Below the pieces are notes generated by a model. It worked only from the letters and a program-made list of their open reading frames with translations, ran no database searches and was not told where the DNA came from. The position numbers and the translations under genes were made by a program. A DNA stretch of 64,000 nt from Sphingomonas faeni (GTDB taxonomy: Bacteria > Pseudomonadota > Alphaproteobacteria > Sphingomonadales > Sphingomonadaceae), in the NCBI RefSeq assembly GCF_030817315.1, contig NZ_JAUSZF010000001.1, positions 692,001-756,000 of the forward strand, given 5' to 3'. Shown one piece after another: positions 4,773-62,776 of this stretch (positions within the stretch are counted from its first letter, which is position 1; each line of letters begins with the position of its first letter).

Positions 4773-4892
4773 CCCTTCCCCCCTCCCTGAAAGGGAGGGG
4801 CCGGGGGTGGGTAGGTCACCGCATTAATCGAACCGGCACGACACGAGCGGGCCGACCCACCCCCAACCCCTCCCTTTCAGGGAGGGGCGAAG
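4773..4892. repeat. Palindromic repeat, family A
   Basis: About 120 bp. Each end is a small hairpin (ccctccctgaaagggaggg on the left, cctccctttcagggagg on the right). The inner flanks, ggccgggggtgggt and acccacccccaacc, can pair with each other across a 45-base centre, so the whole element can fold as a stem with two terminal hairpins. Confidence 0.85.
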
Positions 4893-8577: not shown

Positions 8578-9531
8578 ATGACGATGGCGCTCGAAATCTT
8601 CCGTGCATTGGCTGATGCGACCCGATTGCGGATTCTGGCGCTGTTGCGGCGTATGGAGCTGTCGGTCGGCGAACTCGCGCAGGTGCTCGGGCAGAGCCAG
8701 CCACGCGTGTCGCGGCATGTGAAGATCCTGTGCGATGCCGGGCTTGCCGAACGTCGCAAGGAGGGCAGCTGGGTGTTCGTCGCGCTTGGTGCGCCCGACG
8801 TGGTCGAACCGGTCGCGGCGGCGCTGGATGTCTGGGCGAAGGCCGAACCGGATCATTGGGCGGTGGCGGATGCGGCACGGCTTGCCGCGGTGCGCGCGGA
8901 CCGGGCGGCGAGTGCGGCGGCGTGGTTCGAGGGGCATGCCGACGAATGGGACGCGATCCGGTCGCTGCACGTCGCCGATAGCGAGGTCGAGGCGGCGATG
9001 GCACTCGTGCTGGGCGACGCTCCGGTAGGGACGCTTATCGATATCGGTACGGGTACCGGGCGGATGCTCGAATTGTTCGGCGGACGGGCTACGGTCGCGC
9101 TCGGGATCGATCGCAGTTCGGAGATGCTGCGGCTTGCGCGGGCGAAGCTTCACGACATGACGCACGCGGAACTGCGCCAGGCGGACCTTTACGCGCTGCC
9201 GATGGCGGATGCCGCGGCGGATGTCGCGATCCTGCACCACGTCCTGCATTTCGCGCAGCAGCCCGGCGCGGCGGTGAGTGAGGCGGCGCGGGTCCTCGCG
9301 CCCGGCGGGCGGCTGTTGATCGCGGACTTTGCAAGCCACGACCGTGAGGAATTGCGGGTGCGCGATGCGCACACGCGTCTCGGGTTCGCGGACGAGCAGA
9401 TGGCGGCGTGGTTCGAGGCGGCGGGCTTGCAGACGGCGCGGGTCGAGACGCTCGAGGGCGGTGAGTTGACGGTAAAATTATGGCTCGGCCGGCAGATCGG
9501 CGCGAGCTTGCGTGAGGTGAAGGCGGCATGA
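8578..9531 (+). CDS. ArsR-family regulator fused to SAM methyltransferase (SahR-like)
   Basis: A 317-residue two-domain protein. Residues 1-95 form an ArsR winged helix (ALADATRLRILALLRRMELSVGELAQVLGQ, then QPRVSRHVKILCDAGL). Residues about 130-300 form a class I SAM-dependent methyltransferase fold (IDIGTGTGRMLELF, then DVAILHHVLHFAQQP). It overlaps metF by four bases and heads a metF-metH operon, so it is probably the SAM- or SAH-sensing repressor of methionine synthesis (SahR type). The ATG at 8584 is an alternative start. A methyltransferase activity is not shown; the domain may serve only as a ligand sensor. Confidence 0.85.
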   Translation: MTMALEIFRALADATRLRILALLRRMELSVGELAQVLGQSQPRVSRHVKILCDAGLAERRKEGSWVFVALGAPDVVEPVAAALDVWAKAEPDHWAVADAARLAAVRADRAASAAAWFEGHADEWDAIRSLHVADSEVEAAMALVLGDAPVGTLIDIGTGTGRMLELFGGRATVALGIDRSSEMLRLARAKLHDMTHAELRQADLYALPMADAAADVAILHHVLHFAQQPGAAVSEAARVLAPGGRLLIADFASHDREELRVRDAHTRLGFADEQMAAWFEAAGLQTARVETLEGGELTVKLWLGRQIGASLREVKAA

Positions 9532-10472
9532 CGAACATTTCGATCCCCCAACTGGCCGAAGCGCGGCGCGCGCTTGAGGAACCGCTGTTCGCGGACCTAG
9601 CGGGCGATGTCGGTATCAGCTTCGAATTCTTCCCGCCCAAAAGCGAGAAGATGGAGACGCAGCTCTGGGACGCGATCCGGACGCTGGAGCCGCTTGGCCC
9701 CGATTTCGTGTCGGTCACCTACGGCGCTGGCGGTTCCACGCGCGAGCGGACGCACGCGACGGTCGCGCGGATCCAGCGCGAGACGTCGATGAATGCGGCC
9801 GCGCATCTGACCTGCGTCGAGGCGACCAAGGCCGAGATCGACCAGGTCGCCGAGGAGTATTGGGCGGCAGGCGTGCGCCACATCGTCGCGCTGCGCGGCG
9901 ACATGCCGACGCTCGGCCAGCCGTATCAGGCGCATCCGGGTGGGTATGAGAATGCGGCGGCTCTTGTTGCTGGCCTGCGGAAGCTGCACCCGTTCGAGAT
10001 TTCGGTCGCGGCGTATCCCGAATGCCATCCGGAATCGGGCGGCCATGATGCTGATCTCGACAATCTGAAGCGCAAGCTCGACGCGGGTGCGAGCCGCGCG
10101 ATCACGCAGTTCTTCTTCTCCCCCGAGGCGTATTTCCGGTTTCGCGACCGGGTTGCGGCGGCGGGGATCACCGCGCAGATCCTGCCGGGCATCCTGCCGG
10201 TCTCCAACGTCGCCCAGACGCGCAAGTTCGCAGGCGCTTGCGGCGCGGAAATCCCGGCGTGGATGGACCGGCTGTTCGAAGGCCTCGACGATCATCCCGC
10301 TGCCCGGCAACTCGTTGCGGCGACGATCGCGGCCGAGATGTGCCGGCGGCTCTATGCGGGCGGCGTGAAGGACTTCCACTTCTACACGCTCAACCGCGCG
10401 GAGCTGGCCTACGCGATCTGCCACATGCTGGGTGTTCGCGCGAAGCCGGTTGAAAAGGTCGCCGCGGCCTAA
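9528..10472 (+). CDS. metF: 5,10-methylenetetrahydrofolate reductase
   Basis: A 314-residue FAD-dependent TIM-barrel enzyme that reduces 5,10-methylene-THF to 5-methyl-THF, the methyl donor for MetH downstream. Family motifs are visible: SFEFFPPKSEKMETQLW (N-terminal Glu), SVTYGAGGSTRERT, AAHLTCV, VRHIVALRGDMP, then AITQFFF and GILPVSN. The start overlaps the regulator stop as ATGA. The C-terminal region DFHFYTLNRAELAYAIC is intact. A family A repeat follows the stop codon. Confidence 0.96.
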   Translation: MTNISIPQLAEARRALEEPLFADLAGDVGISFEFFPPKSEKMETQLWDAIRTLEPLGPDFVSVTYGAGGSTRERTHATVARIQRETSMNAAAHLTCVEATKAEIDQVAEEYWAAGVRHIVALRGDMPTLGQPYQAHPGGYENAAALVAGLRKLHPFEISVAAYPECHPESGGHDADLDNLKRKLDAGASRAITQFFFSPEAYFRFRDRVAAAGITAQILPGILPVSNVAQTRKFAGACGAEIPAWMDRLFEGLDDHPAARQLVAATIAAEMCRRLYAGGVKDFHFYTLNRAELAYAICHMLGVRAKPVEKVAAA

Positions 10473-10473
10473 C

Positions 10474-10591
10474 TTCTGCCCCCCTCCCGTAAGCGGGAGG
10501 GGCCGGGGGTGGGCTCGCGCTCTCCTCCAACGTTACCGCCCGAGGATATCAGGCGCCCACCCCCGACCCCTCCCGCTCGCGGGAGGGGGGA
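10474..10591. repeat. Palindromic repeat, family A, between metF and metH1
   Basis: About 118 bp with terminal hairpins cccctcccgtaagcgggagg and ctcccgctcgcgggagg and pairing inner flanks ggggtgggc / gcccacccc. It occupies almost the whole metF-metH1 gap, and its last purine tract (ggagggggga) is placed as the ribosome-binding site of metH1. Confidence 0.85.
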
Positions 10592-10600
10592 GTGAATACG

Positions 10601-11659
10601 ATGACACCACGTGAACGTTTCAACGCGGAAGCCGCCAAGCGCATCCTGATCACCGACGGCGCGTTCGGCACCGAGATCCAGAACTGGAAGCTCGACGAGG
10701 CGGCCTATGCGGGATCGCTCGGCTTGAGCCATGACCAGAAGGGCAACAACGACATCCTGGCGATCACCAAGCCGGAAGTCCCCGAGACGATCACGCGCGA
10801 ATATCTGGAAGCCGGTTCGGACATCGTCTCGACCAACACGTTCAGCGCCAACGTGATCTCGCAGGCCGATTACGGCGCCGAGCATCTGGTGCGCGAAATC
10901 AACGTCGAGTCCGCGCGGATCGCGCGTGCGCTCGCGACCGAATACGAAGCGAAGGACGGTCGTCCGCGCTTCGTCGCCGGCGCGATCGGGCCGACCAACA
11001 AGACACTGTCGCTGTCGCCCGACGTCAACGATCCGGGGTTCCGCGAGATCGACTTCGATTACTTGAAGGGCGTGTACCGCGAGCAGATCGACGCGCTGCT
11101 AGAGGGCGGCGAGGGGGTCGGAGTCGACTTCATCCTGATCGAGACGGTGTTCGATACGCTCAACGCGAAGGCCGGCATCATGGCGGCGATCGAGGCGGGC
11201 GACGCGCTTGGGCGCGACGTGCCGATCATGATGTCGATGACGTTGACGGATCTTAGCGGGCGTAACCTGTCGGGGCATACGGTCGAGGCGTTCTGGCACG
11301 CGGTGCGGCATGCCAAGCCGATCACGATCGGGCTGAATTGTTCGTTCGGGGCGGAGCAGTTGCGGCCGCATGTGAAGACGCTGTCGGCGATCGCGGATAC
11401 GCTGATCATGGTCTACCCGAACGCTGGCCTGCCCAACGAACTCGGCGAGTATGACGAGCAGCCGGAGACGACGGCGGGGTTGGTCGGCGAGTGGGCGGTG
11501 GCGAAACAGGTCAACGTGCTCGGCGGCTGCTGCGGGTCGACGCCGGCGCATATCAAGGCGATGGCGGATGGTGTGCGCGGGCTAGAGCCGCGGGTCGTGG
11601 CGCGGCCGGAAGTACGGACCAAACTCGCCGGCCTCGAACCGTTCACGATGGCGGCCTGA
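10601..11659 (+). CDS. metH1: Methionine synthase, homocysteine-binding part
   Basis: A 352-residue protein equal to the N-terminal homocysteine methyltransferase module of cobalamin-dependent MetH. Zinc ligands are in place: Cys247 in GLNCSFG, and Cys310-Cys311 in GGCCGS. Other motifs: ITDGAFGTEIQ, TNTFSAN, FIETVFDTLNAKAG-like and MSMTLTD. The rest of MetH is encoded by the next gene, so the enzyme works as a two-subunit complex. This split is known in several alphaproteobacteria. GTG at 10592 is an in-frame alternative start, but ATG 10601 is better spaced from the purine tract supplied by the preceding repeat. Confidence 0.93.
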   Translation: MTPRERFNAEAAKRILITDGAFGTEIQNWKLDEAAYAGSLGLSHDQKGNNDILAITKPEVPETITREYLEAGSDIVSTNTFSANVISQADYGAEHLVREINVESARIARALATEYEAKDGRPRFVAGAIGPTNKTLSLSPDVNDPGFREIDFDYLKGVYREQIDALLEGGEGVGVDFILIETVFDTLNAKAGIMAAIEAGDALGRDVPIMMSMTLTDLSGRNLSGHTVEAFWHAVRHAKPITIGLNCSFGAEQLRPHVKTLSAIADTLIMVYPNAGLPNELGEYDEQPETTAGLVGEWAVAKQVNVLGGCCGSTPAHIKAMADGVRGLEPRVVARPEVRTKLAGLEPFTMAA

Positions 11660-11661
11660 CT

Positions 11662-11785
11662 TCTTTCCCCTCCCGCAAGCGGGAGGGGGCAGGGGGTGGG
11701 CTCGCGCTCCCCTCCAACGATTAGGCCCGCGGATGGCGGGCGCCCACCCCCCGACCCCCTCCCGCTTGCGGGAGGGGGGGAAGAA
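11662..11785. repeat. Palindromic repeat, family A, between metH1 and metH2
   Basis: About 124 bp, very similar to the copy inside metH2 (13798-13920): same terminal hairpin cccctcccgcaagcgggagg, same ggggtgggc flank and closely similar centre (cgcgct.ccctcca). Its 3' purine tract ggagggggggaagaa lies upstream of the metH2 ATG and probably helps ribosome binding. Confidence 0.85.
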
Positions 11786-11793
11786 CCAGACAG

Positions 11794-14511
11794 ATGACCA
11801 CCACTTCTTCCTCCTCATTCGTCAACATCGGCGAGCGCACCAACGTCACCGGCTCCGCGCGCTTCAAGAAGCTGATCATGGCCGGCGATTACCCCGCCGC
11901 GGTCGAGGTCGCGCGCCAGCAGGTCGAGAGCGGCGCGCAGGTGCTCGACGTCAACATGGACGAGGGGCTGCTCGACGCGCATCACGCGATGACGACGTTC
12001 CTGAAACTGATCGCCGCCGAACCCGATATCGCGCGCATCCCGTTCATGGTCGACAGCTCGAAATGGAGCGTGATCGAGGCGGGGCTGAAGTGCGTCAGCG
12101 GCAAGCCGATCGTCAATTCGATCAGCATGAAGGAGGGCGAGGAGCAGTTCCTGGCGCAGGCGCGCAAGTGCATGGCGTACGGTGCGGCGGTGGTCGTGAT
12201 GGCGTTCGACGAGGTCGGGCAGGCGGACACCAAGGACCGCAAGGTCGAGATCTGCGAGCGCGCCTATAAGCTGCTCGTCGGGATCGGCTTCCCGCCCGAG
12301 GACATCATCTTCGATCCCAACGTGTTCGCGGTCGCGACGGGGATCGAGGAGCACAACAACTACGGCGTCGACTTCATCGAGGCGTGCAAGGAGATCAAGG
12401 CACGCTGCCCTCACGTCCATATCTCGGGCGGGCTGTCGAACTTCAGCTTCTCGTTCCGCGGCAATGAGCCGGTGCGCCGGGCGATGCACAGCGTGTTCCT
12501 GTACTACGCGATCCCCGCGGGTATGGACATGGCGATCGTCAACGCCGGTCAGCTCGACATCTACGACGACATCGATCCCGAACTGCGCAAGGCGGTCGAG
12601 GACGTCGTGCTCAACACCGATCCCGAGGCCGGCGACCGGCTGGTAGCGCTCGCCGAACGCTATCGCGGGACCGACGTGGTCGCCGAGAAGGCGGCGGCGG
12701 AATGGCGCTCACTCGGCGTCAACAAACGGCTCGAATATGCGCTGGTCAAGGGCATCGACCTTCACGTCGTCGAGGATACCGAGGAAGCGCGGCAGATCAT
12801 CGAGACCAATGGCGGCCGCCCGATCGAGGTCATCGAAGGTCCGCTGATGGACGGCATGAACGTCGTCGGCGACCTGTTCGGCTCTGGGAAAATGTTCCTG
12901 CCGCAGGTCGTGAAGTCGGCGCGCGTGATGAAGAAGGCGGTCGCGCATCTGCTGCCGTATATCGAGGCGGCCAAGGAGCCCGGCGCGCGCGGCAAGGGCA
13001 AGATCATCATGGCGACCGTCAAGGGCGACGTGCATGACATCGGCAAGAACATCGTCGGCGTGGTGTTGCAGTGCAACGGCTTCGACGTGGTCGATCTCGG
13101 CGTGATGGTGCCGTGGTCGAAGATCCTCGAAGCGGCGAACGAGAACGATGCGGACATGATCGGGCTCAGCGGGCTGATCACGCCGAGCCTCGACGAGATG
13201 GTGACGGTCGCCGAGGAGATGAAGCGCGCGGGCATGACGATGCCGCTGCTGATCGGCGGCGCGACGACCTCGAAGGTCCACACCGCGCTCAGGATCGCGC
13301 CCGCGTACGACGGTCCAGTGGTGCATGTGCTCGACGCCAGCCGCGCGGTGGGCGTTGCCTCGACGCTGGTGTCGGACACGATCCGCGACGAGTTCGTGAC
13401 CAAGACCGCGGACGAATATGAGGCGGTGCGGATCTCGCGCGCGAACAAGGGGCAGAGCGAATTGCTGCCCTTGGCTACCGCACGGGAGCGCAAGTTCGTG
13501 GCGGACTTTTCGTTGAAGCCTGCTGCGCCCGTGAAACCCGGCGTGCACGTATTCGCGGACTGGGACCTGACCGATCTGCGCGACTATATCGACTGGACGC
13601 CGTTCTTCCGCGCATGGGAACTGGCAGGGAACTTCCCAGCGATCCTGACCGACGAGGTCGTCGGCGAGAGTGCGAGTGCGCTGTATGCGGATGCGCAGGC
13701 GATGCTCGATACGATCGTCGCGGAGAAGTGGCTGACCCCGCGCGGGGTCGCGGGGCTGTGGCCGGCGCGCCGTGAGGGCGATGATGTTGTGGTCACCGCT
13801 TCCCCCCTCCCGCAAGCGGGAGGGGCCGGGGGTGGGCACGCGCTCTCCTCCATCGGCACGCTTCAGGATGGCGCGAGCCCACCCCCCAACCCCCTCCCGC
13901 AAGCGGGCGGGGGGGAAGAAGTCCGCCTCCCCATGCTGCGCCAACAGATCGCCAAGCGCGAGGGCCGCGCCAACATGTGTCTCGCCGATTTCATCGACAC
14001 CCAGGACGACTGGTTCGGCGGGTTCGCAGTCGGTATCCACGGCATCGACGAGCACATCGCGCGGTTCAAGGCAGGGCATGACGATTACAACGACATCCTG
14101 CTCAAGGCGCTCGCCGACCGCTTCGCCGAAGCCTTCGCCGAACGCCTCCACAAGCATGTTCGCCAAGAGCTATGGGGCTATGCGCCCGAGGAACAGCTCA
14201 CCAACGACGCGCTGATCAAGGAGCAGTATCGCGGCATCCGCCCCGCACCGGGCTATCCCGCCTGCCCGGACCACAGCCTCAAGCCGATCCTGTTCGACCT
14301 GCTCGACGCCGAGACCGCGACCGGGCTGGAACTGACCGAGAGCTTCGCGATGTTCCCGACCGCCGCGGTATCGGGCTTCTATTTCGGCCACCCGCAGGCG
14401 GAGTATTTCGGCGTCGCGCGCGTCGGTCGCGACCAGCTCGAGGATTACGCCGCACGCCGTGGCGCCGACCTCAAGACCGCCGAGCGCTGGCTTCGTCCTA
14501 ACCTCGACTAA
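11794..14511 (+). CDS. metH2: Methionine synthase, pterin/B12/activation part, with in-frame repeat
   Basis: A 905-residue protein equal to the C-terminal three modules of MetH. Pterin-binding barrel: residues 1 to about 280 ([18 protein letters not shown]). Cobalamin-binding cap and Rossmann domain: about 320-560, with the axial histidine in [12 protein letters not shown] near residue 412. SAM-dependent reactivation domain: from about 580 ([40 protein letters not shown] region). Between [13 protein letters not shown] and [13 protein letters not shown] the protein carries about 41 extra residues (669-709, Pro/Gly-rich) encoded by a family A palindromic repeat, inserted without breaking the frame. 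The normal family sequence resumes immediately. The insert lies in a loop of the activation domain, so activity may be retained. metH1 is directly upstream. Confidence 0.95.
13798..13920 (+). repeat. Family A palindromic repeat inside the metH2 coding sequence
   Basis: 123 bp, exactly 41 codons, with both terminal hairpins (ccctcccgcaagcgggaggg and cctcccgcaagcgggcgg) and the ggggtgggc / gcccaccccc flanks. It is read in a stop-free frame giving PLPQAGG at one end and PLPQAGGG at the other. The neighbouring protein sequence is normal MetH on both sides. Confidence 0.88.
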
Positions 14512-16356: not shown

Positions 16357-16362
16357 GTCACC

Positions 16363-16444
16363 CGTCATCCTGACGAAAGTCAGGATCCAGAGTTACGCGC
16401 GCCGTCCCATCGGCTCTGGATCCTGACTTTCGTCAGGATGACGG
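16363..16444. repeat. Palindromic repeat, family E
   Basis: An 82-bp inverted repeat with long arms (cgtcatcctgacgaaagtc... / ...gactttcgtcaggatgacg, then ggatccagag / ctctggatcc) around a short centre. It lies between two convergent genes and may terminate both transcripts. Confidence 0.85.
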
Positions 16445-19036: not shown

Positions 19037-19272
19037 TTGGTTCACGCGAAGGCGCGAAGGCGCGAAGAAGGTTTGTTCACGCGGAGGCGCGGAGGCGCGG
19101 AGGCGCGGAGGTGTCCCGCGCGGTACGACCGTCGCGTAACACTTCGGATGTCGATGATGAGGGGGACCGTTGGTCCCGTATTCAGCACCTCCGCGTCTCC
19201 GCGTCTCCGCGTGAACCCATTCTTCTAGCCTCCTTGCGCCTTCGGCTTGGCTCGGGACAGGCTTTGCGTGAG
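19037..19272. repeat. Composite palindromic repeat, family D
   Basis: About 235 bp. The left half has ggttcacgcgaaggcgcgaag, then a tandem ggcgcgga unit (about four copies). The right half contains the inverted form cctccgcgtctccgcgtctccgcgtgaa and ends ggctcgggacaggctttgcgtgag. A second copy with the same order of blocks lies at 62.5-62.8 kb. It sits between qorA and the phytase operon. Confidence 0.8.
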
Positions 19273-25088: not shown

Positions 25089-25185
25089 CGTCATCCCCGC
25101 GCAGGCGGGGATCCATATCCTCGACCGCTCGCGCTTCTATCGCATGGTAAGCCAGTATGGGTTCCCGCCTGCGCGGGAATGACGG
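25089..25185. repeat. Palindromic repeat, family C (long form)
   Basis: About 97 bp: cgtcatccccgcgcaggcgg on the left, and gttcccgcctgcgcgggaat then gacg on the right, with a 50-base centre. Related to the copies at 31.8 kb and at the right end of the window. Confidence 0.85.
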
Positions 25186-27895: not shown

Positions 27896-28008
27896 CTCCC
27901 CTCCCTTGAAGGGAGGGGCAGGGGGTGGGTCGGTTTCGAGGGAACGTCCGGCCAGCCCCACGGCCGACCCAACCCCCGCCCCTCCCTTCCAGGGAGGGGG
28001 GACGTCAG
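27896..28008. repeat. Palindromic repeat, family A
   Basis: About 113 bp: cccctcccttgaagggaggg then cagggggtgggtcgg; on the right ccgacccaacccccgcccct then cccttccagggagggg. It fills the gap between accC and the ArsC-like gene, both on the minus strand. Confidence 0.85.
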
Positions 28009-31790: not shown

Positions 31791-31830
31791 TGCGTAACGG
31801 GTTCAGGTCACTGCTACCACCTCACACCAT

Positions 31831-31925
31831 CGTCATCCCCGCGCAGGCGGGGACCCATAATCTATACGATCTCGATCGACCTCCACCGTCAGCCCATATG
31901 GGTTCCCGCCTCCGCGGGAATGACG
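31831..31925. repeat. Palindromic repeat, family C (long form)
   Basis: About 95 bp: cgtcatccccgcgcaggcgg on the left, gttcccgcctccgcgggaat then gacg on the right. Confidence 0.85.
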
Positions 31926-31981
31926 AGTGATTGGAGTAAGCGACCTTGCTCCCCAACCCAAACCCCATCACGAGCGCCCAC

Positions 31982-34450: not shown

Positions 34451-34516
34451 GAAAAAGCCTCCCCCGGTTACCCGGAGGAGGCTGCATCAATTGCCCGGAA
34501 GGGGCAACGCTATCTC

Positions 34517-34643
34517 TGATCCTCCCCCGCCAGCGGGAGGTGGCAGGCACTTGCCTGGCGGAGGGGGAGGAAAGGGCAAACCGGTTGTATCGCCGCCCCC
34601 CTCCGTCGCTTCGCGCCACCTCCCCCTAGCGGGGGAGGATCAG
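34517..34643. repeat. Palindromic repeat, family B
   Basis: About 127 bp: gatcctcccccgccagcggg-aggtggc at left, a hairpin caggcacttgcctg, ggcggagggggagg, then the inverse ccccctccgtcgc and ccacctccccctagcggggg-aggatc at right. It lies between the MAPEG and DHS-like genes, both on the minus strand. Confidence 0.85.
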
Positions 34644-34649
34644 CCAGCC

Positions 34650-35711
34650 TCAGGCCTTGTCGAAGCTCGCGCCCCACTTGCGGACCGGACGGTCCTTCCA
34701 GAGCCCACGATGATACGCGTCAGACGCCAGCAACGGCATCACCGAACCGGCTTCGGCGAACACCATCTGCTCGATGCCCGTGTTCACCTTGCCCCACGAA
34801 GCCGCTTCCTGCAGCGTCGACGACGAGCACGCACCGTCGCGCACGTCGGCAACGGTGATCTGCACCGCGTACTTGTGCACCTGGACGTCGTCGTGCCCGA
34901 GGATCTCGGCGCAAACCACGGTGTCCTGGATGAAGTTCTTCGGCACGCCGCCGCCGATCATCAGCAGCCCGGTGGTGCCCGCCTTGATCTTGATCTCGGT
35001 CAGCTCGCGGAAGTCGGCGATCGCGTCGAGGACCATGTACGGCTTGCCCGCCTTCACCGCGTCGACCTGGTGCTTGACCAGACCGAAGCCTGCCGACGAG
35101 TCGACGAACGCCGGGCAGAAAATCGGCACGTCATGCTCGTAGGCGAGCTTGACGAGGCTGTTCTCCTTCTTGCCGTGCTCGACGAGATACTTGCCCATCT
35201 CGCGGATGAACTCGCGGCTCGAATAGGCGCGCGGCTCGAGCGTCTCGGCGATCTCGAAGATCGTGTGGTCGACGTGCTGGAGTTCTTCCTCGTCGATGTA
35301 CGTGTCGTAGATCCGGTCGATCATCAGCGAGCGCAGCACGTCGTCGTGCGGCACTTCGAGCGCCTGGTAATGCTTATGGCCGAGGCCCTCGAAGAAATCC
35401 ATGTCGACGATCGTCGCGCCGGTCGCGACGATGCCGTCGATCATGTTGTTGCGCAGCAGCTCGGCATACAGGTCCATGCAACCGCCGGCCGAGGTCGAGC
35501 CCGCGATCACGAGGAAGATCGTGCAGTCCTTGTCGGCCAGCATCTGGTTGTAGATGTCGGTCGCACGGCCGAGGTCGCGGCTGGTGAACGACATCTTCTT
35601 CATCGCGTCGACGATCGGCCGCGCGTCGAAGCTCTTGATGTCGATATGCTCGACGGTGGTGGAAAGGAGTTCCGCCTTGCGCTGCGCGTCGATGCGGGTG
35701 TCTTCGGTCAT
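34650..35711 (-). CDS. Deoxyhypusine synthase-like (homospermidine-type) enzyme
   Basis: A 353-residue protein of the deoxyhypusine synthase fold. Visible motifs: FLVIAGSTSAGGCMDLY and GIVATGATIVDMDFFEGLG (NAD-binding region), LMIGGGVPKN and the Lys-containing C-terminal SWGKVNTG with the catalytic-type Lys. Bacteria lack eIF5A, so these proteins are thought to make homospermidine or related polyamines using NAD. The ornithine-type decarboxylase gene directly upstream would supply putrescine, which fits that role. Confidence 0.85.
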   Translation of the reverse strand: MTEDTRIDAQRKAELLSTTVEHIDIKSFDARPIVDAMKKMSFTSRDLGRATDIYNQMLADKDCTIFLVIAGSTSAGGCMDLYAELLRNNMIDGIVATGATIVDMDFFEGLGHKHYQALEVPHDDVLRSLMIDRIYDTYIDEEELQHVDHTIFEIAETLEPRAYSSREFIREMGKYLVEHGKKENSLVKLAYEHDVPIFCPAFVDSSAGFGLVKHQVDAVKAGKPYMVLDAIADFRELTEIKIKAGTTGLLMIGGGVPKNFIQDTVVCAEILGHDDVQVHKYAVQITVADVRDGACSSSTLQEAASWGKVNTGIEQMVFAEAGSVMPLLASDAYHRGLWKDRPVRKWGASFDKA

Positions 35712-35725
35712 GTCTAATTTCTCCT

Positions 35726-35845
35726 GATCCCCCCTCCCGCCTGCGGGAGGGGGCTAGGGGGTGGGCGCCCGCTCGCCGCGAACGCTCCGGATGTGGAAAA
35801 CGCGCGCCCAACCCTCGGTCCCCTCCCGCGAGCGGGAGGGGAAGA
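35726..35845. repeat. Palindromic repeat, family A
   Basis: About 120 bp: cccctcccgcctgcgggagg-gggctagggggtgggcgccc at left; gcgcgcccaaccctcggtcc-cctcccgcgagcgggagggg at right. It separates the decarboxylase gene from the DHS-like gene on the same strand. Confidence 0.85.
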
Positions 35846-35873
35846 CGAAGAGCGAGCGATTACTTGGTGTTGA

Positions 35874-37109
35874 TTACAGCTTGACGACGTTCGACGCGAG
35901 GTCCTGAAACCGCTCGTCATACAGCGAGACCATCGGCTCATCCGTAACGATCACCGTCTCGTCCGATCCGAACCCGTTGAACGCGGTCCGCATCGCCGAG
36001 CCGTACGCGCCCAGCATGCCGATCTCGATATAGTCACCCGCCTGCGTGTCCGCCGGCAGCATGAACGGGCCGACCATATAGTCCATGTCGTCGCACGTCG
36101 GACCATAGAAGCTGAACTCCATGTCCTTCGCGCGGCTGTCCGGCTCGCGGAGCAACTCGGTCGGGAAACGCCAGCCGATATGCGCCGCATCGAACAGTGC
36201 GCCATACGCGCCGTCGTTGATGTACAGCTCGGTCCCGCGACGCTTTTCGACGCGCACGATGATCGACGAATATTCCGCGCACAATGCCCGGCCCGGCTCG
36301 CACCACAGCTCGGACGAATAGCTGACGGGCAGCGATTCGAACGCGCGATGGATCGTCTCGAAGAAATGCTCGAGCGGGGGGGGCTCCATGCCGGGATACG
36401 ACGACGGAAAGCCGCCGCCGACGTCGATCACGTCGACCGTGACCGCCGCCTCGACGATCGCCGCGCGGACGCGCTCCATCGCGTTCGAATAGGCCTCCGG
36501 GGTCATCGCCTGCGAACCGACATGGAAGCAGATGCCTAGCGCGTCCGCAGCCTGGCGGGCCGCGAACAGCAGCTCCTTGGCTTCATGCGGCGCTGCACCG
36601 AACTTCGACGCCAGCGACAGCTTCGAATGCTCCGACGACACGCGCAAACGCACGCACAACGTCAGGTCGGTGGCTTCGCGGGTGGCACGAACGACCTTGT
36701 CCAGCTCTTCCAGGCTGTCGAGGCTGAAGGTGCGGACGCCATGCGTGAAATACGCCTCGGCGATCGCTTCCTCGGCCTTGACCGGGTGCATGAAGCAGAG
36801 CGTAGCCTCAGGGAGCGTCCGTGCGACCAGGCGCACCTCGGCGATTGACGCCACGTCGTAATGCGTGATGCCGTTGTCCCACAGGATCTGCAGGAGCTCG
36901 GGAGACGGGTTCGCCTTGACCGCATACATCGAGCGACCCGGGAACTTCTCGACGAAGAACCGAGCGGCGCGCGCAGCAGCGTGCGGACGAACGAGCGTTA
37001 CCGGGTTGACCGGGCGCCCTTTAGCGATGTCGATGCCGCTCCCGATGCGGGAGGTGTCGGCGGTCGAATGGGCTTTCGCTAACCCCAGCGCGATATGATG
37101 CTTGACCAA
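35874..37109 (-). CDS. Fold-type III PLP decarboxylase (ornithine/lysine type)
   Basis: A 411-residue alanine-racemase-fold decarboxylase, like eukaryotic-type ornithine decarboxylase. The PLP Lys is in MYAVKANPSPELL (about residue 64). The phosphate-binding Gly-rich loop is VIDVGGGFPSSYPG, the EPGR motif is present as CEPGRALCAEYS, and the catalytic Cys is in GPTCDDMD with the substrate Asp. It probably makes putrescine (or cadaverine) for the downstream polyamine enzyme. Its start lies 137 bp from the divergent dehydratase. Confidence 0.92.
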   Translation of the reverse strand: MVKHHIALGLAKAHSTADTSRIGSGIDIAKGRPVNPVTLVRPHAAARAARFFVEKFPGRSMYAVKANPSPELLQILWDNGITHYDVASIAEVRLVARTLPEATLCFMHPVKAEEAIAEAYFTHGVRTFSLDSLEELDKVVRATREATDLTLCVRLRVSSEHSKLSLASKFGAAPHEAKELLFAARQAADALGICFHVGSQAMTPEAYSNAMERVRAAIVEAAVTVDVIDVGGGFPSSYPGMEPPPLEHFFETIHRAFESLPVSYSSELWCEPGRALCAEYSSIIVRVEKRRGTELYINDGAYGALFDAAHIGWRFPTELLREPDSRAKDMEFSFYGPTCDDMDYMVGPFMLPADTQAGDYIEIGMLGAYGSAMRTAFNGFGSDETVIVTDEPMVSLYDERFQDLASNVVKL

Positions 37110-39268: not shown

Positions 39269-40288
39269 TTGGAACCGGTCCTGTCCCGCATCTACCTCGA
39301 TCACGCTGCCACCACGCCGATGCGCCCCGAGGCGATGGCGGCGGTTGCGGACGGCATGGCGCGCTGGGCGAACCCGTCCTCGCCGCATGCCGAGGGACGC
39401 GCGGCACGGGCTGCGCTCGAGGATGCGCGGAAGCGTATCGCCAAGGCGCTTGACTGGCCGCACCACGTGATCCTGACGAGCGGCGCGAGCGAGTCCGCGG
39501 CGCTTGCGTTGAAAGGGCGGCCCAGCCTCGGCGTGGCCGCGGTGGAACACGACGCGGTGCTCCGGGCGGCCGAACGCCCGATAACGCTGAACGTCGACGA
39601 CCGCGGAATCGTCGCCCCCAGCCAGACCACGCAGACGATCGCGCTCCAGTCCGCCAACAGCGAAACCGGCGTATTGCAGGATCGCCCCACCGGCCTCTGG
39701 ATCGCCGACTGCTCGCAGACCGCCGGCAAGCTCCCGCTCCCCGACGCCGACCTCATCATCGTCTCCGCGCACAAGCTCGGCGGCCCCCCCGGCATAGGCG
39801 CGTTGCTGGTCCGCGACCTCGGCCTCCTCGACCCGACCGGTGGACAGGAACGCGGCTATCGCGGCGGCACTGAGAACCTCCCCGGCGCGCTAGGCTTCGC
39901 CACCGCGCTGGAGGCTCCGCGAGACTGGTTCGCCGGCATGGCCGATCTCCGCGCCAAGCTCGACGAAGCGATCCTCACAGGCGGCGGTGAGATCGTCGCG
40001 CACCACGCCCCGCGCATCCCGACGATAGCCTCCTACCGCATGCCCGGAATCAGCTCCGCCGCGCAGCTTATCCGCCTCGACATGGCCGGGTTCGCCGTCT
40101 CCGCGGGCAGCGCCTGTTCGTCCGGCAGCATGCGCCCGAGCCACGTCCTCGCCGCGATGGGCTATTCCGCGCAAGCCGCCGCCGAAGTCGTCCGCGTCAG
40201 CTTCGGCTGGACCACGACGGCCGAAGATGTCGCCAAGTTCGCCGAGGCCTGGACGCGCATCGCCACCGACATAAGGCGAGCCGCATGA
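39269..40288 (+). CDS. Cysteine desulfurase, first of a tandem pair
   Basis: About 339 residues, class V PLP enzyme that removes sulfur from cysteine. Signs: YLDHAATTPMRPEAM at the N-terminus, PLP Lys in SAHKLGGPPGIGALL and the mobile catalytic-Cys loop GSACSSGSMRPSHVL. Start codon uncertain: TTG 39269 is used here; a nearby start just before RIYLDHAATT is also possible. Length is short for IscS (about 400). It overlaps the second desulfurase gene by four bases (ATGA), suggesting the two may act together. Confidence 0.85.
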   Translation: MEPVLSRIYLDHAATTPMRPEAMAAVADGMARWANPSSPHAEGRAARAALEDARKRIAKALDWPHHVILTSGASESAALALKGRPSLGVAAVEHDAVLRAAERPITLNVDDRGIVAPSQTTQTIALQSANSETGVLQDRPTGLWIADCSQTAGKLPLPDADLIIVSAHKLGGPPGIGALLVRDLGLLDPTGGQERGYRGGTENLPGALGFATALEAPRDWFAGMADLRAKLDEAILTGGGEIVAHHAPRIPTIASYRMPGISSAAQLIRLDMAGFAVSAGSACSSGSMRPSHVLAAMGYSAQAAAEVVRVSFGWTTTAEDVAKFAEAWTRIATDIRRAA

Positions 40289-41547
40289 CCTATCTCGACT
40301 ACCAGGCGACCACCCCCCTCGCGCCCGAAGCGCTCGCCGCGATGCTCCCCTGGCTCGAATCGCAACACGCCAACCCGCATTCCCCCCACCGCGAAGGCCG
40401 CCGCGCGAAAGCCGCCGTCGAAGTCGCCCGCAACCAGGTCGCCGCACTGCTCCCCCCCGGTGGCCGCATCGCCTTCACCAGCGGCGCGACCGAGGCGCTC
40501 AACTGGGCGATCAAGGGCACGACCGGACCGATCGTGACGTTGGCTACCGAACACGCGGCCGTCCTCGACACTGTCGCGGCGGAGGCGGCGAGGGGGCGCC
40601 GCGTCACGATCCTCCCAGTCGGCGCAGACGGCCTTGGTGGGAGTGACAGTCGAGGTGCCGGCAGTCAGCACGACTCTTCCCCCCTCCCTGGAAGGGAGGG
40701 GTCGGGGGTGGGTCGGCTTCCGTATGATCGAACGACGGCGGCAAAAGCTGGCCAACCCACCCCCAGCCCCTCCCTGCCAGGGAGGGGGGAAGTCGAAAGT
40801 CGATCTACGCCAGTCGACCCCGACACATCCCGCGCCGCGATCCCCACCGGCACCGGCCTCGTCGCCGCGATGCTCGTCAACAACGAGATCGGCGTCATCC
40901 AGCCGATCGCCGCGCTCGCCGACGCCACCCACGCAGCCGGCGCGCTGATGCTCTGCGACGCGGTCCAGGGCTATGGCCGGGTAGCAATCCCAAGCACCGT
41001 CGACCTCATCGCCATCTCCGCACACAAGATCCACGGCCCCAAGGGCATCGGCGCACTCTGGATCCGAGACGGCATCGACCTCGCCCCCTTGATGCACGGC
41101 GGCGGACAGGAAGCCCCCGGCCGCTCCGGCACACTCTCGCCCGCACTATGCGTAGGCTTCGGCGTTGCCGCGCAACTCATGGCCGACCGCAAGGATCAGG
41201 ATGCCGCGCACATCGACCGTCTCTGGTCGCTCGCGCTCGACCGCCTCGGCCCCGGCTGGACGATCAACGGCGCGACCGACTTCCGCTATCACGGCAACCT
41301 CAACATCCGCCGCGAAGGCCTCGACGTGAATCGCCTCATGTCCGACTTGCGCGACATCGCCTTCTCCGCCGGTTCCGCCTGCGCCAGCGGCTCCGGCCGC
41401 TCCAGCCACGTCCTCCGCGCGATCGGCCTCACGGAAAAAGAAGCGCGCTCCAGCATCCGCCTGGGCTTCGGCCGATACACCACCGAAACCGAACTCCGCG
41501 ACGCAATCGATGCGATCGTCGCCGCAGCCGAGGCGCAATGGCCATGA
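40285..41547 (+). CDS. Cysteine desulfurase, second of pair, with in-frame repeat
   Basis: A 420-residue cysteine desulfurase. PLP Lys in SAHKIHGPKGIGAL, Cys loop AGSACASGSGRSSHVL and LVAAMLVNNEIGVIQPI are all normal. Between PVGADGL (about residue 116) and VDPDTSRAAIPTGTGL (about 177) there are about 60 extra residues compared with the family; about 40 of them (131-170) are encoded by a family A palindromic repeat read in a stop-free frame (PLPGREGSGVG at one end, PSLPGRGEV at the other). Without the insert the length would be normal for the family. The 2Fe-2S ferredoxin gene follows. Confidence 0.9.
   Translation: MTYLDYQATTPLAPEALAAMLPWLESQHANPHSPHREGRRAKAAVEVARNQVAALLPPGGRIAFTSGATEALNWAIKGTTGPIVTLATEHAAVLDTVAAEAARGRRVTILPVGADGLGGSDSRGAGSQHDSSPLPGREGSGVGRLPYDRTTAAKAGQPTPSPSLPGRGEVESRSTPVDPDTSRAAIPTGTGLVAAMLVNNEIGVIQPIAALADATHAAGALMLCDAVQGYGRVAIPSTVDLIAISAHKIHGPKGIGALWIRDGIDLAPLMHGGGQEAPGRSGTLSPALCVGFGVAAQLMADRKDQDAAHIDRLWSLALDRLGPGWTINGATDFRYHGNLNIRREGLDVNRLMSDLRDIAFSAGSACASGSGRSSHVLRAIGLTEKEARSSIRLGFGRYTTETELRDAIDAIVAAAEAQWP
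40674..40795 (+). repeat. Family A repeat inside a cysteine desulfurase gene
   Basis: About 122 bp: cccctccctggaagggaggg-gtcgggggtgggtcggc at left; gccaacccacccccagcccc-tccctgccagggaggg at right. Same orientation and reading frame (SPLP...) as the copy in metH2. Confidence 0.87.
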
Positions 41548-59574: not shown

Positions 59575-59691
59575 GTCCCTCACCCCTCCGGGGAGAGGGA
59601 AGGGCCCCGCCGCCCTTGCGGTGGGAAGGGAGAGGGGAGTGAGGCTCGGGACGTTGCATCCCAACTCCCTCTCCCCGAAGGGGCGAAGGAA
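59575..59691. repeat. Palindromic repeat, family F (B-like)
   Basis: About 117 bp: tccctcacccctccggggag-agggaagg, a ccgccgcccttgcggtggg hairpin, gggagaggggagtgag, then the inverse ctccctctcc and ccccgaaggggcgaagg. It lies between the convergent dnaB and cysH genes. Confidence 0.8.
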
Positions 59692-62522: not shown

Positions 62523-62776
62523 GGATTGGTTCACGCGAAGGCGCGATGGCGCGAAGAGATTCAGAAGAATTCTGTTCGCGCGGAGACACGGAGACGCGGA
62601 GGAGAAAGCACCCGCGCTTGCGGGCAGCAAAGCTGAAGCGGCTAGCGAGTGTGAAGGCCGCTGCGCGGCAAGCGCAACACCTCCGCGTCTCCGCGTCTCC
62701 GCGTGAAACACCTTCTCGCTAACCTCTTCGCGCCATCGCGCTCCTTCGACTTCGCTCAGGACAGGCTTTGCGTGAA
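62523..62776. repeat. Composite palindromic repeat, family D
   Basis: About 254 bp with the same block order as 19037-19272: ggttcacgcgaaggcgcgatgg, then cggagacacggagacgcggagg, a unique centre, then cacctccgcgtctccgcgtctccgcgtgaa and a tail ending cttcgctcaggacaggcttt-gcgtga. It sits between DUF2849 and cysI, on one strand, interrupting the cys cluster. Confidence 0.8.

Follow-up and report, generated by a model that had tools for sequence, protein, structure and literature searches.

The metH2 gene of Sphingomonas faeni carries, in frame and within the stretch that encodes the activation domain of methionine synthase (MetH), a REP-like palindromic element. At the same site close relatives carry the same palindrome, other palindromes or none, and comparable inserts stand in several other core enzymes: the pattern suggests that a small number of permissive sites in housekeeping proteins see palindromic repeats come and go. 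We consider it probable that the metH2 insert belongs to a class of REP-like palindromes that are mobile but non-autonomous, that selection confines to tolerant loops, and that are then gained, lost and exchanged there.

The metH2 insert and its repeat family

The window (the whole stretch of DNA analysed, 64,000 nucleotides) contains a metF-metH1-metH2 cluster (9528-14511, plus strand) in which three copies of one palindromic repeat – here called type A – are found, two of them between genes and one inside metH2 (Table 1). MetH is split in this genome: metH1 encodes the homocysteine-binding part and metH2 the remainder, and both match MetH models of NCBIfam. The metH2 product scores 1145 bits against TIGR02082 (cut-off 1011) and 1432 bits against NF007024, which is below the cut-off of 1497. 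Judged from the sequence, the likely start of metH1 is the ATG at 10601. The right ends of both intergenic elements, just 5' of the metH1 and metH2 starts, are purine-rich (10575-10601 and 11765-11794) and could, on these grounds, serve as the ribosome-binding sites of the two genes.

Table 1. Genes and palindromic elements discussed in the text, with their positions in the window.
Feature	Position	Strand	Basis and remarks
metF, methylenetetrahydrofolate reductase	9528..10472	+	ORF; NCBIfam
Type-A element between metF and metH1	10471..10598	+	Covariance model; G000:C1:702471-702598
metH1, homocysteine-binding part of MetH, separate gene	10592..11659	+	ORF; NCBIfam
Type-A element between metH1 and metH2	11657..11787	+	Covariance model; G000:C1:703657-703787
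metH2, cobalamin-dependent methionine synthase (pterin-binding, B12-binding and activation domains), 905 aa	11794..14511	+	ORF; Pfam domains
Type-A palindromic element in metH2	13794..13922	+	Covariance model R1; palindrome proper 13799-13918
Palindrome left arm in metH2	13802..13843	+	Repeat alignment; REP unit 13807-13822
Palindrome right arm in metH2	13873..13914	+	Repeat alignment; REP unit 13894-13909 (1 mismatch)
Fourth type-A element, between minus-strand genes 34650-35711 and 35874-37109	35721..35851	+	Covariance model
Sister-family palindrome, core CCTCCCT...AGGGAGG, in frame in cysteine desulfurase gene 40285-41547	40676..40792	+	Frame test; PF00266

An initial annotation of this DNA had placed a palindromic repeat in frame within metH2, and the placement holds: positions 13798-13920 are stop-free within the single open reading frame 11794-14511 and are translated in frame as residues 669-709 of 905. 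The palindrome is GC-rich and imperfect, lies within the activation domain, and has arms that are 74% complementary when paired without gaps. Folded as RNA, the insert reaches -98 kcal/mol, compared to a mean of -61.7 kcal/mol (sd 4.0) for 200 dinucleotide shuffles (z = -9.1), none of which was as low. Its kinship with the two repeats that lie between the genes of the cluster, also claimed at the outset, is borne out by direct-repeat alignment at 65-72%: identity to the metF/metH1 copy is 72% for the metH1/metH2 copy and 65% for the metH2 copy. Relative to the short alleles of close relatives, which have 9 or 16 codons between the anchors (46 here), the net gain is 30-37 codons.

In the comparison with Escherichia coli MetH (3bul) the alignment runs to GDDIEI and resumes at LRQQ, with 15 residues between. 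In an AlphaFold model of residues 555-905 (27 sequences, mean pLDDT 78) the insert residues 673-706 link two strands of the activation domain and have a pLDDT of only about 26-35, which predicts disorder. Residues 803-824 also have a pLDDT below 50 despite forming a largely conserved stretch, and the model is for this reason only fair; compared with known structures, it resembles the activation domains of MetH (best match: E 3.5e-35, TM 0.79 by query length, rmsd 5.1). The insert is probably, as modelled, a floppy surface loop in the activation domain of MetH.

The unit from which type A is built (CCTCCCGCNNGCGGGAGG) occurs in 102 copies at no more than one mismatch in the 4.37-Mb genome, compared to one occurrence of a reversed-pattern control. 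Within the genome stretches examined, type A forms 55 clusters, of which 41 are two-unit copies of at most 185 bp. The units are organized as inverted pairs, the arms of which are paired both in alignment A1 and in model R1, and in several copies the pair ends in ACTTCTkCCCC and GGGGnAGAAGT. The type-A element is thus a REP-like inverted dimer of a hairpin unit of about 20 bp with a short spacer. One locus (G000:C1:2473133-2473555; L050) holds four units, formed by direct duplication of a two-unit element whose spacer is unusually long.

Two candidate properties of the element were rejected. It is not frame-aware: measured with fixed margins, the lengths of the 41 two-unit copies fall in all three classes modulo three (16, 15 and 10 copies for remainders 0, 1 and 2). 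With this the description of the element as 123 bp, exactly 41 codons, loses its standing as an element property, model R1 (16 genomic copies) placing the metH2 copy at 13794-13922. Nor is the element specially stop-free by design: a mean of 4.0 of the six frames is open, compared to 3.7 in shuffles, which is hardly above chance, and GC content explains the open frames.

In-frame insertion was assessed by taking the frame from codon usage over 300 bases on either side of a cluster and asking whether the coding frame of each flank continues through it without a stop. Six type-A clusters are read through in this way, each in a conserved gene (putA, carA, metH2, glyS, ileS and hrpB, by their NCBIfam names); the remaining 49 of 55 are not stop-free in-frame inserts. 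The metH2 insert is therefore not unique but one case of a class, and its portrayal as exceptional gives way further to a type-B insert (see below) in glyS and to the sister-family insert in the cysteine desulfurase gene of the window. Indeed glyS, which encodes the glycyl-tRNA synthetase beta subunit (L037; G000:C1:2097281-2099875), contains two in-frame palindromes of different families, the second of which – the type-B copy – is close to the C terminus.

The window holds still more palindromes. Those at 16362-16444, 25089-25184 and 31830-31926 start with CGTC, have an ATCC stem and are, by the frame test, out of frame with the flanking genes; they resemble the CGTC REPs described in PMC3733652. 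Other long inverted repeats lie at 4775-4892, 19075-19216, 27898-27999, 34516-34643, 59576-59690 and 62541-62741, and among these the repeats at 4775 and 27898 have the design of the metH2 element with a different core.

Turnover of the MetH loop among relatives

Matches to metH2 were obtained in 245 of 250 genomes of the genus, with no internal stop among the matches listed; at E 1e-150 the gene was not found in five, and two more genomes (G208 and G221) have weaker or split matches. The reading frame is kept across the loop in 95 of 96 metH2 loci, and the remaining locus (L172, in G181) stops at a contig end inside the palindrome. These data bear on the possibility that the insert is absent from the final protein, be it through RNA removal, ribosome skipping or protein excision. 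A hairpin of -98 kcal/mol in a coding region is an unusual obstacle to ribosomes, which speaks for such processing. RNA removal, however, would not need a frame, yet the frame persists through inserts of varied length, and an Rfam scan of the window at gathering threshold returned SRP RNA only: we judge absence from the protein to be very improbable.

Inserts of ten or more residues are found at one MetH site only (95 sequences). Close rows of the alignment were those with 93-100% identity over the N-terminal 660 residues, among the matches listed from the 250-genome sample; they comprise our own genome (G000), the best-scoring loci, and G084, G245 and G252, where the match is broken at the insert. 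Twenty-one of these 24 rows are palindromic and three are short, a frequency biased by the manner of selection. The 69 more distant rows – likewise selected, and in which a species may appear twice – consist of 14 palindromic, 27 short and 28 long non-palindromic loops. All these counts omit L069 (the same as L153 over the compared part) and L073, as well as L172, which could not be parsed. The assertion that other families normally have no such insert here calls for a correction: many Sphingomonas carry other palindromes or a non-palindromic loop of about 29-48 codons. Strain-specificity, which was to be judged by comparing homologues, does not hold in any simple form: some palindrome is present in 20 of the 23 close relatives, but type A is found in only two of them (G112 and G198).

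Loop classes were named by peptide. Type A occupies the MetH loop of our own genome, G112 and G198, and type B (SPLRGEGWGEG) that of 11 rows, including Sphingomonas sp. Leaf34; further classes are C (SPARGGG), D (SRLREGSGEG), E (PLPFRGGVG) and single ones. Types A and D have a common hairpin core that is read in different frames. By eye, the spacers of types A, B, C and D are mutually dissimilar, and A and B have some junction letters in common; G010 carries a palindrome of quite a different class. The 35 palindromic loops form nine clusters at 75% identity, five at 70% and three at 65%, one of these last taking in 32 of the 35. Because the number of clusters shifts with the identity threshold, the count of independent origins is threshold-dependent, and some apparently different elements may, to judge from their sequences, be old relatives changed in place.

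The history of the loop was followed on a maximum-likelihood tree of metH2 from which the loop had been removed (support is good for 16 of 29 inner branches, and 7 are drawn open). On this tree the loop state must have changed at least 13 times across 25 close rows, of which two are identical, and at least 18 times across all 33; the tree is that of the gene itself, the topology of which would be distorted by recombination in the flanks. Short alleles are nested among palindromic alleles, and the sister of our own sequence is G249 (support 100/99), which carries type B. A single ancient palindromic insertion in the ancestor of the genus, which then drifted or was rewritten in place by gene conversion from genomic copies, would explain why 32 of the 35 palindromic loops join in one cluster at 65% identity and why types A and B agree in some junction letters. 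It sits poorly with the nested short alleles, with the quite different class in G010, with the dissimilar spacers of A, B, C and D, and with the different reading frames of A and D, and we regard it as unlikely.

The type-A insert of our own genome differs from that of G198 by 1.8% and from that of G112 by 4.5%, compared to 8.4% and 6.7%, respectively, for the 1700 bases of gene upstream. From this low divergence relative to the flank we infer that alleles may have been exchanged between species, the alternative being that the element changes more slowly. Element and flank distances show no significant correlation (rho 0.23, p 0.13, 45 non-independent pairs), which fits exchange and is no proof of it. 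No target-site duplication, of the kind that an IS-derived MITE would leave, was recognised by eye at the metH2 junctions. The metH2 allele type likewise shows, by eye, no simple correspondence to the REP family that is most abundant in each genome (counts of A, B and C). G252, with counts of 0, 0 and 0 for the three REP cores, has a short MetH loop and non-palindromic GlyS loops: this one genome fits the expectation that resident elements fill the slots.

A further line of evidence concerns constraint. Among ten type-B alleles, divergence within the insert is 0.035, 0.068 and 0.071 at codon positions 1, 2 and 3, compared to 0.025, 0.018 and 0.200 in the upstream gene of the same alleles; within the insert the arms differ by 0.040 and the spacer by 0.114. 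No codon-like constraint on the insert peptide is visible, and it is the arms of the palindrome that change least. Slow change of the arms, relative both to the spacer and to the third codon positions of the gene, would be expected if the insert were kept for a function – as an mRNA hairpin that slows ribosomes or protects the message, or as a loop that tunes the enzyme – as would the presence of some palindrome in most close relatives examined. Such a function appears quite unlikely to be what retains the insert, given that its second and third codon positions diverge alike, that the peptides are wholly different between types, that close relatives have short alleles, and that only six of the 55 type-A clusters are inserted in genes in frame.

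The same pattern in other enzymes

Slots comparable to the MetH loop are found in GlyS and IleS. By a strict test, and with our own genome included, palindromes are present at 20 of 26 parsed loci for GlyS slot 1 and 19 of 25 for GlyS slot 2 (29 loci in each case), and at 18 of 24 parsed loci for IleS (30 loci); these counts are conservative, since the loci from which the test took its controls contain additional palindromes. GlyS was matched in 29 of 30 genomes, the exception being G249, and the unparsed loci number 3 of 29 for slot 1, 4 of 29 for slot 2 and 6 of 30 for IleS. Our own IleS insert fails the strict test, yet is of type A by the covariance model. The slot peptides of the two enzymes belong to classes A, B, C, D-like and others.

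CarA was compared at the peptide level in 20 of 120 listed proteins, and at the DNA level in our own genome. Its linker carries type A, a LSTSLETNGEG type or PLPFRGGAGGG, or is without such a peptide; the nearest named matches are from S. albertensis, S. faeni and S. aurantiaca. The CarA of Sphingomonas sp. CARO-RG-8B-R24-01 (P0111) apparently contains two tandem copies of the PLPFRGGAGGG-type peptide. For the cysteine desulfurase of the window, 17 of 120 listed relatives are 410-427 aa long and 103 are 355-361 aa, and proteins named S. faeni include both long and short forms; 11 of the 120 sequences were examined beyond their length. The enzymes of 355-361 aa, which by length would be without the insert, may represent a natural empty site at the protein level.

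Frames are broken at or next to a slot in three draft genomes: G174 in ileS (L289), where one hairpin of the palindrome is left, G181 in glyS slot 2 (L249), and G095 in glyS slot 1 (L259). A contig end coincides with a slot in metH2 of G181, in ileS of G249 and probably also in ileS of G112. The broken frames are likely due to collapse of hairpins in assembly, with real breaks as the alternative. These breaks, together with the G181 contig that stops inside the metH2 insert, could also be taken to mean that the insert is itself an assembly artefact or part of a decaying pseudogene. That is hardly credible: the same class of insert recurs in many independent assemblies, and metH2 is intact and conserved on both sides of it. 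The concern raised in the initial annotation, an assembly artefact, is dispelled as regards a single genome by palindromes in the same place in the independent assembly of Leaf34 (L069) and in many others.

Proposed origin and relation to known systems

If the insert is a non-autonomous REP-like mobile palindrome, then copies would land in many places and those that break genes would be removed by selection; the survivors would be intergenic copies and copies in the few surface loops able to take about 40 extra residues. The GC-richness of the element leaves most of the six frames stop-free, and an insertion with a net length that is a multiple of three would yield a disordered, Pro/Gly-rich loop. 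Tolerant loops would stay open thereafter – palindromes being lost, other families arriving, and alleles being exchanged between related species by recombination. Transposition of the element, retention of the peptide in the protein, movement of alleles by recombination and selective removal of harmful insertions are the steps that we infer.

A bolder proposal, to which we give rather little credence, is that the loops are exchange sites: cruciform-forming DNA would itself promote replacement by other palindrome families or by the alleles of other species, leaving MetH, IleS, GlyS, CarA and other enzymes with continuously renewed, family-switching loop peptides. If true, REP-like DNA would constitute a standing generator of protein variation that operates without RAYT.

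Palindromes inside proteins, best known from the obligate intracellular Rickettsia, are here extended to a genus that includes numerous environmental species in culture, and the MetH loop offers a comparative system in which one loop of one core enzyme holds several inserts or none among close relatives. The observations bear on the mobility of REP-like elements in genomes in which no RAYT is detected, and on whether repeats can supply protein loops with material that is neutral or of use. They also carry a warning: palindromic loops can break draft assemblies.

PF01797, the Y1 transposase family of RAYT type, has no match in our own genome, and a RAYT-driven REPIN in the strict sense is rejected on these grounds. 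The family is present in 8 of the 37 genomes searched, two of them in the genus (G006 and G010), and it was also matched in 5 of 14 control genomes; the other genus members in this search were G001-G022, a set with at most a minority of the close relatives. Inspection by eye of the unit ends in 16 aligned type-A copies revealed no GTAG/CGTC tag, and type A, having neither tag, is therefore REP-like without belonging to either superfamily.

Erythrobacter litoralis and Sphingopyxis alaskensis are sphingomonads. Intragenic REPs were described in 2013 in many species, in frame in conserved genes, and those in tRNA synthetases of these two bacteria are among them (PMC3733652). In recB, X. campestris and X. 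oryzae have different REPs at nearly the same position, and REPs of the CGTC type apparently also occur without a dedicated transposase (PMC3733652). REP, REPIN and BIME elements are like type A in that they consist of short hairpin units, mostly as inverted dimers, present in tens of copies, some of which are in frame and most of which, probably in type A too, are intergenic; type A is unlike them in having no GTAG/CGTC tag, in residing in a genome where no RAYT-type transposase was found, and in a multi-species turnover of loops that the available part of the source does not describe (PMC3733652).

Repeats with inverted symmetry that are read as protein are also known elsewhere, in other sequences and other hosts: enterobacterial RU elements, which are intragenic and MITE-like (PMC2759123), and coding palindromes of nematomorph mitochondria, which are reported to be perfect inverted repeats of up to 284 bp (PMC6649704). 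A parallel in behaviour would be with Rickettsia palindromic elements, found in frame within Rickettsia genes (PMC10969869). Like the Sphingomonas inserts, these are palindromes of about 150 bp, many of them in frame in unrelated conserved genes, where they add an extra peptide (PMC10969869 and PMC3733652), and type A has this trait of in-frame insertion in conserved genes, with six cases. The resemblance noted at the start therefore stands as what seems an analogy of behaviour; by the published descriptions, on which the comparison is based, the Sphingomonas element is unlike the Rickettsia ones in being GC-rich and in that several classes alternate in one slot.

Titles and opening lines of abstracts in the literature on intragenic and in-frame palindromes yielded no description of multi-allelic slots; single slots may be included in the gene list of PMC3733652 (Additional file 3). 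In-frame REPs in genes, those in sphingomonad tRNA synthetases included, are already known: what is new is a multi-allelic slot, found across many species and in several core enzymes.
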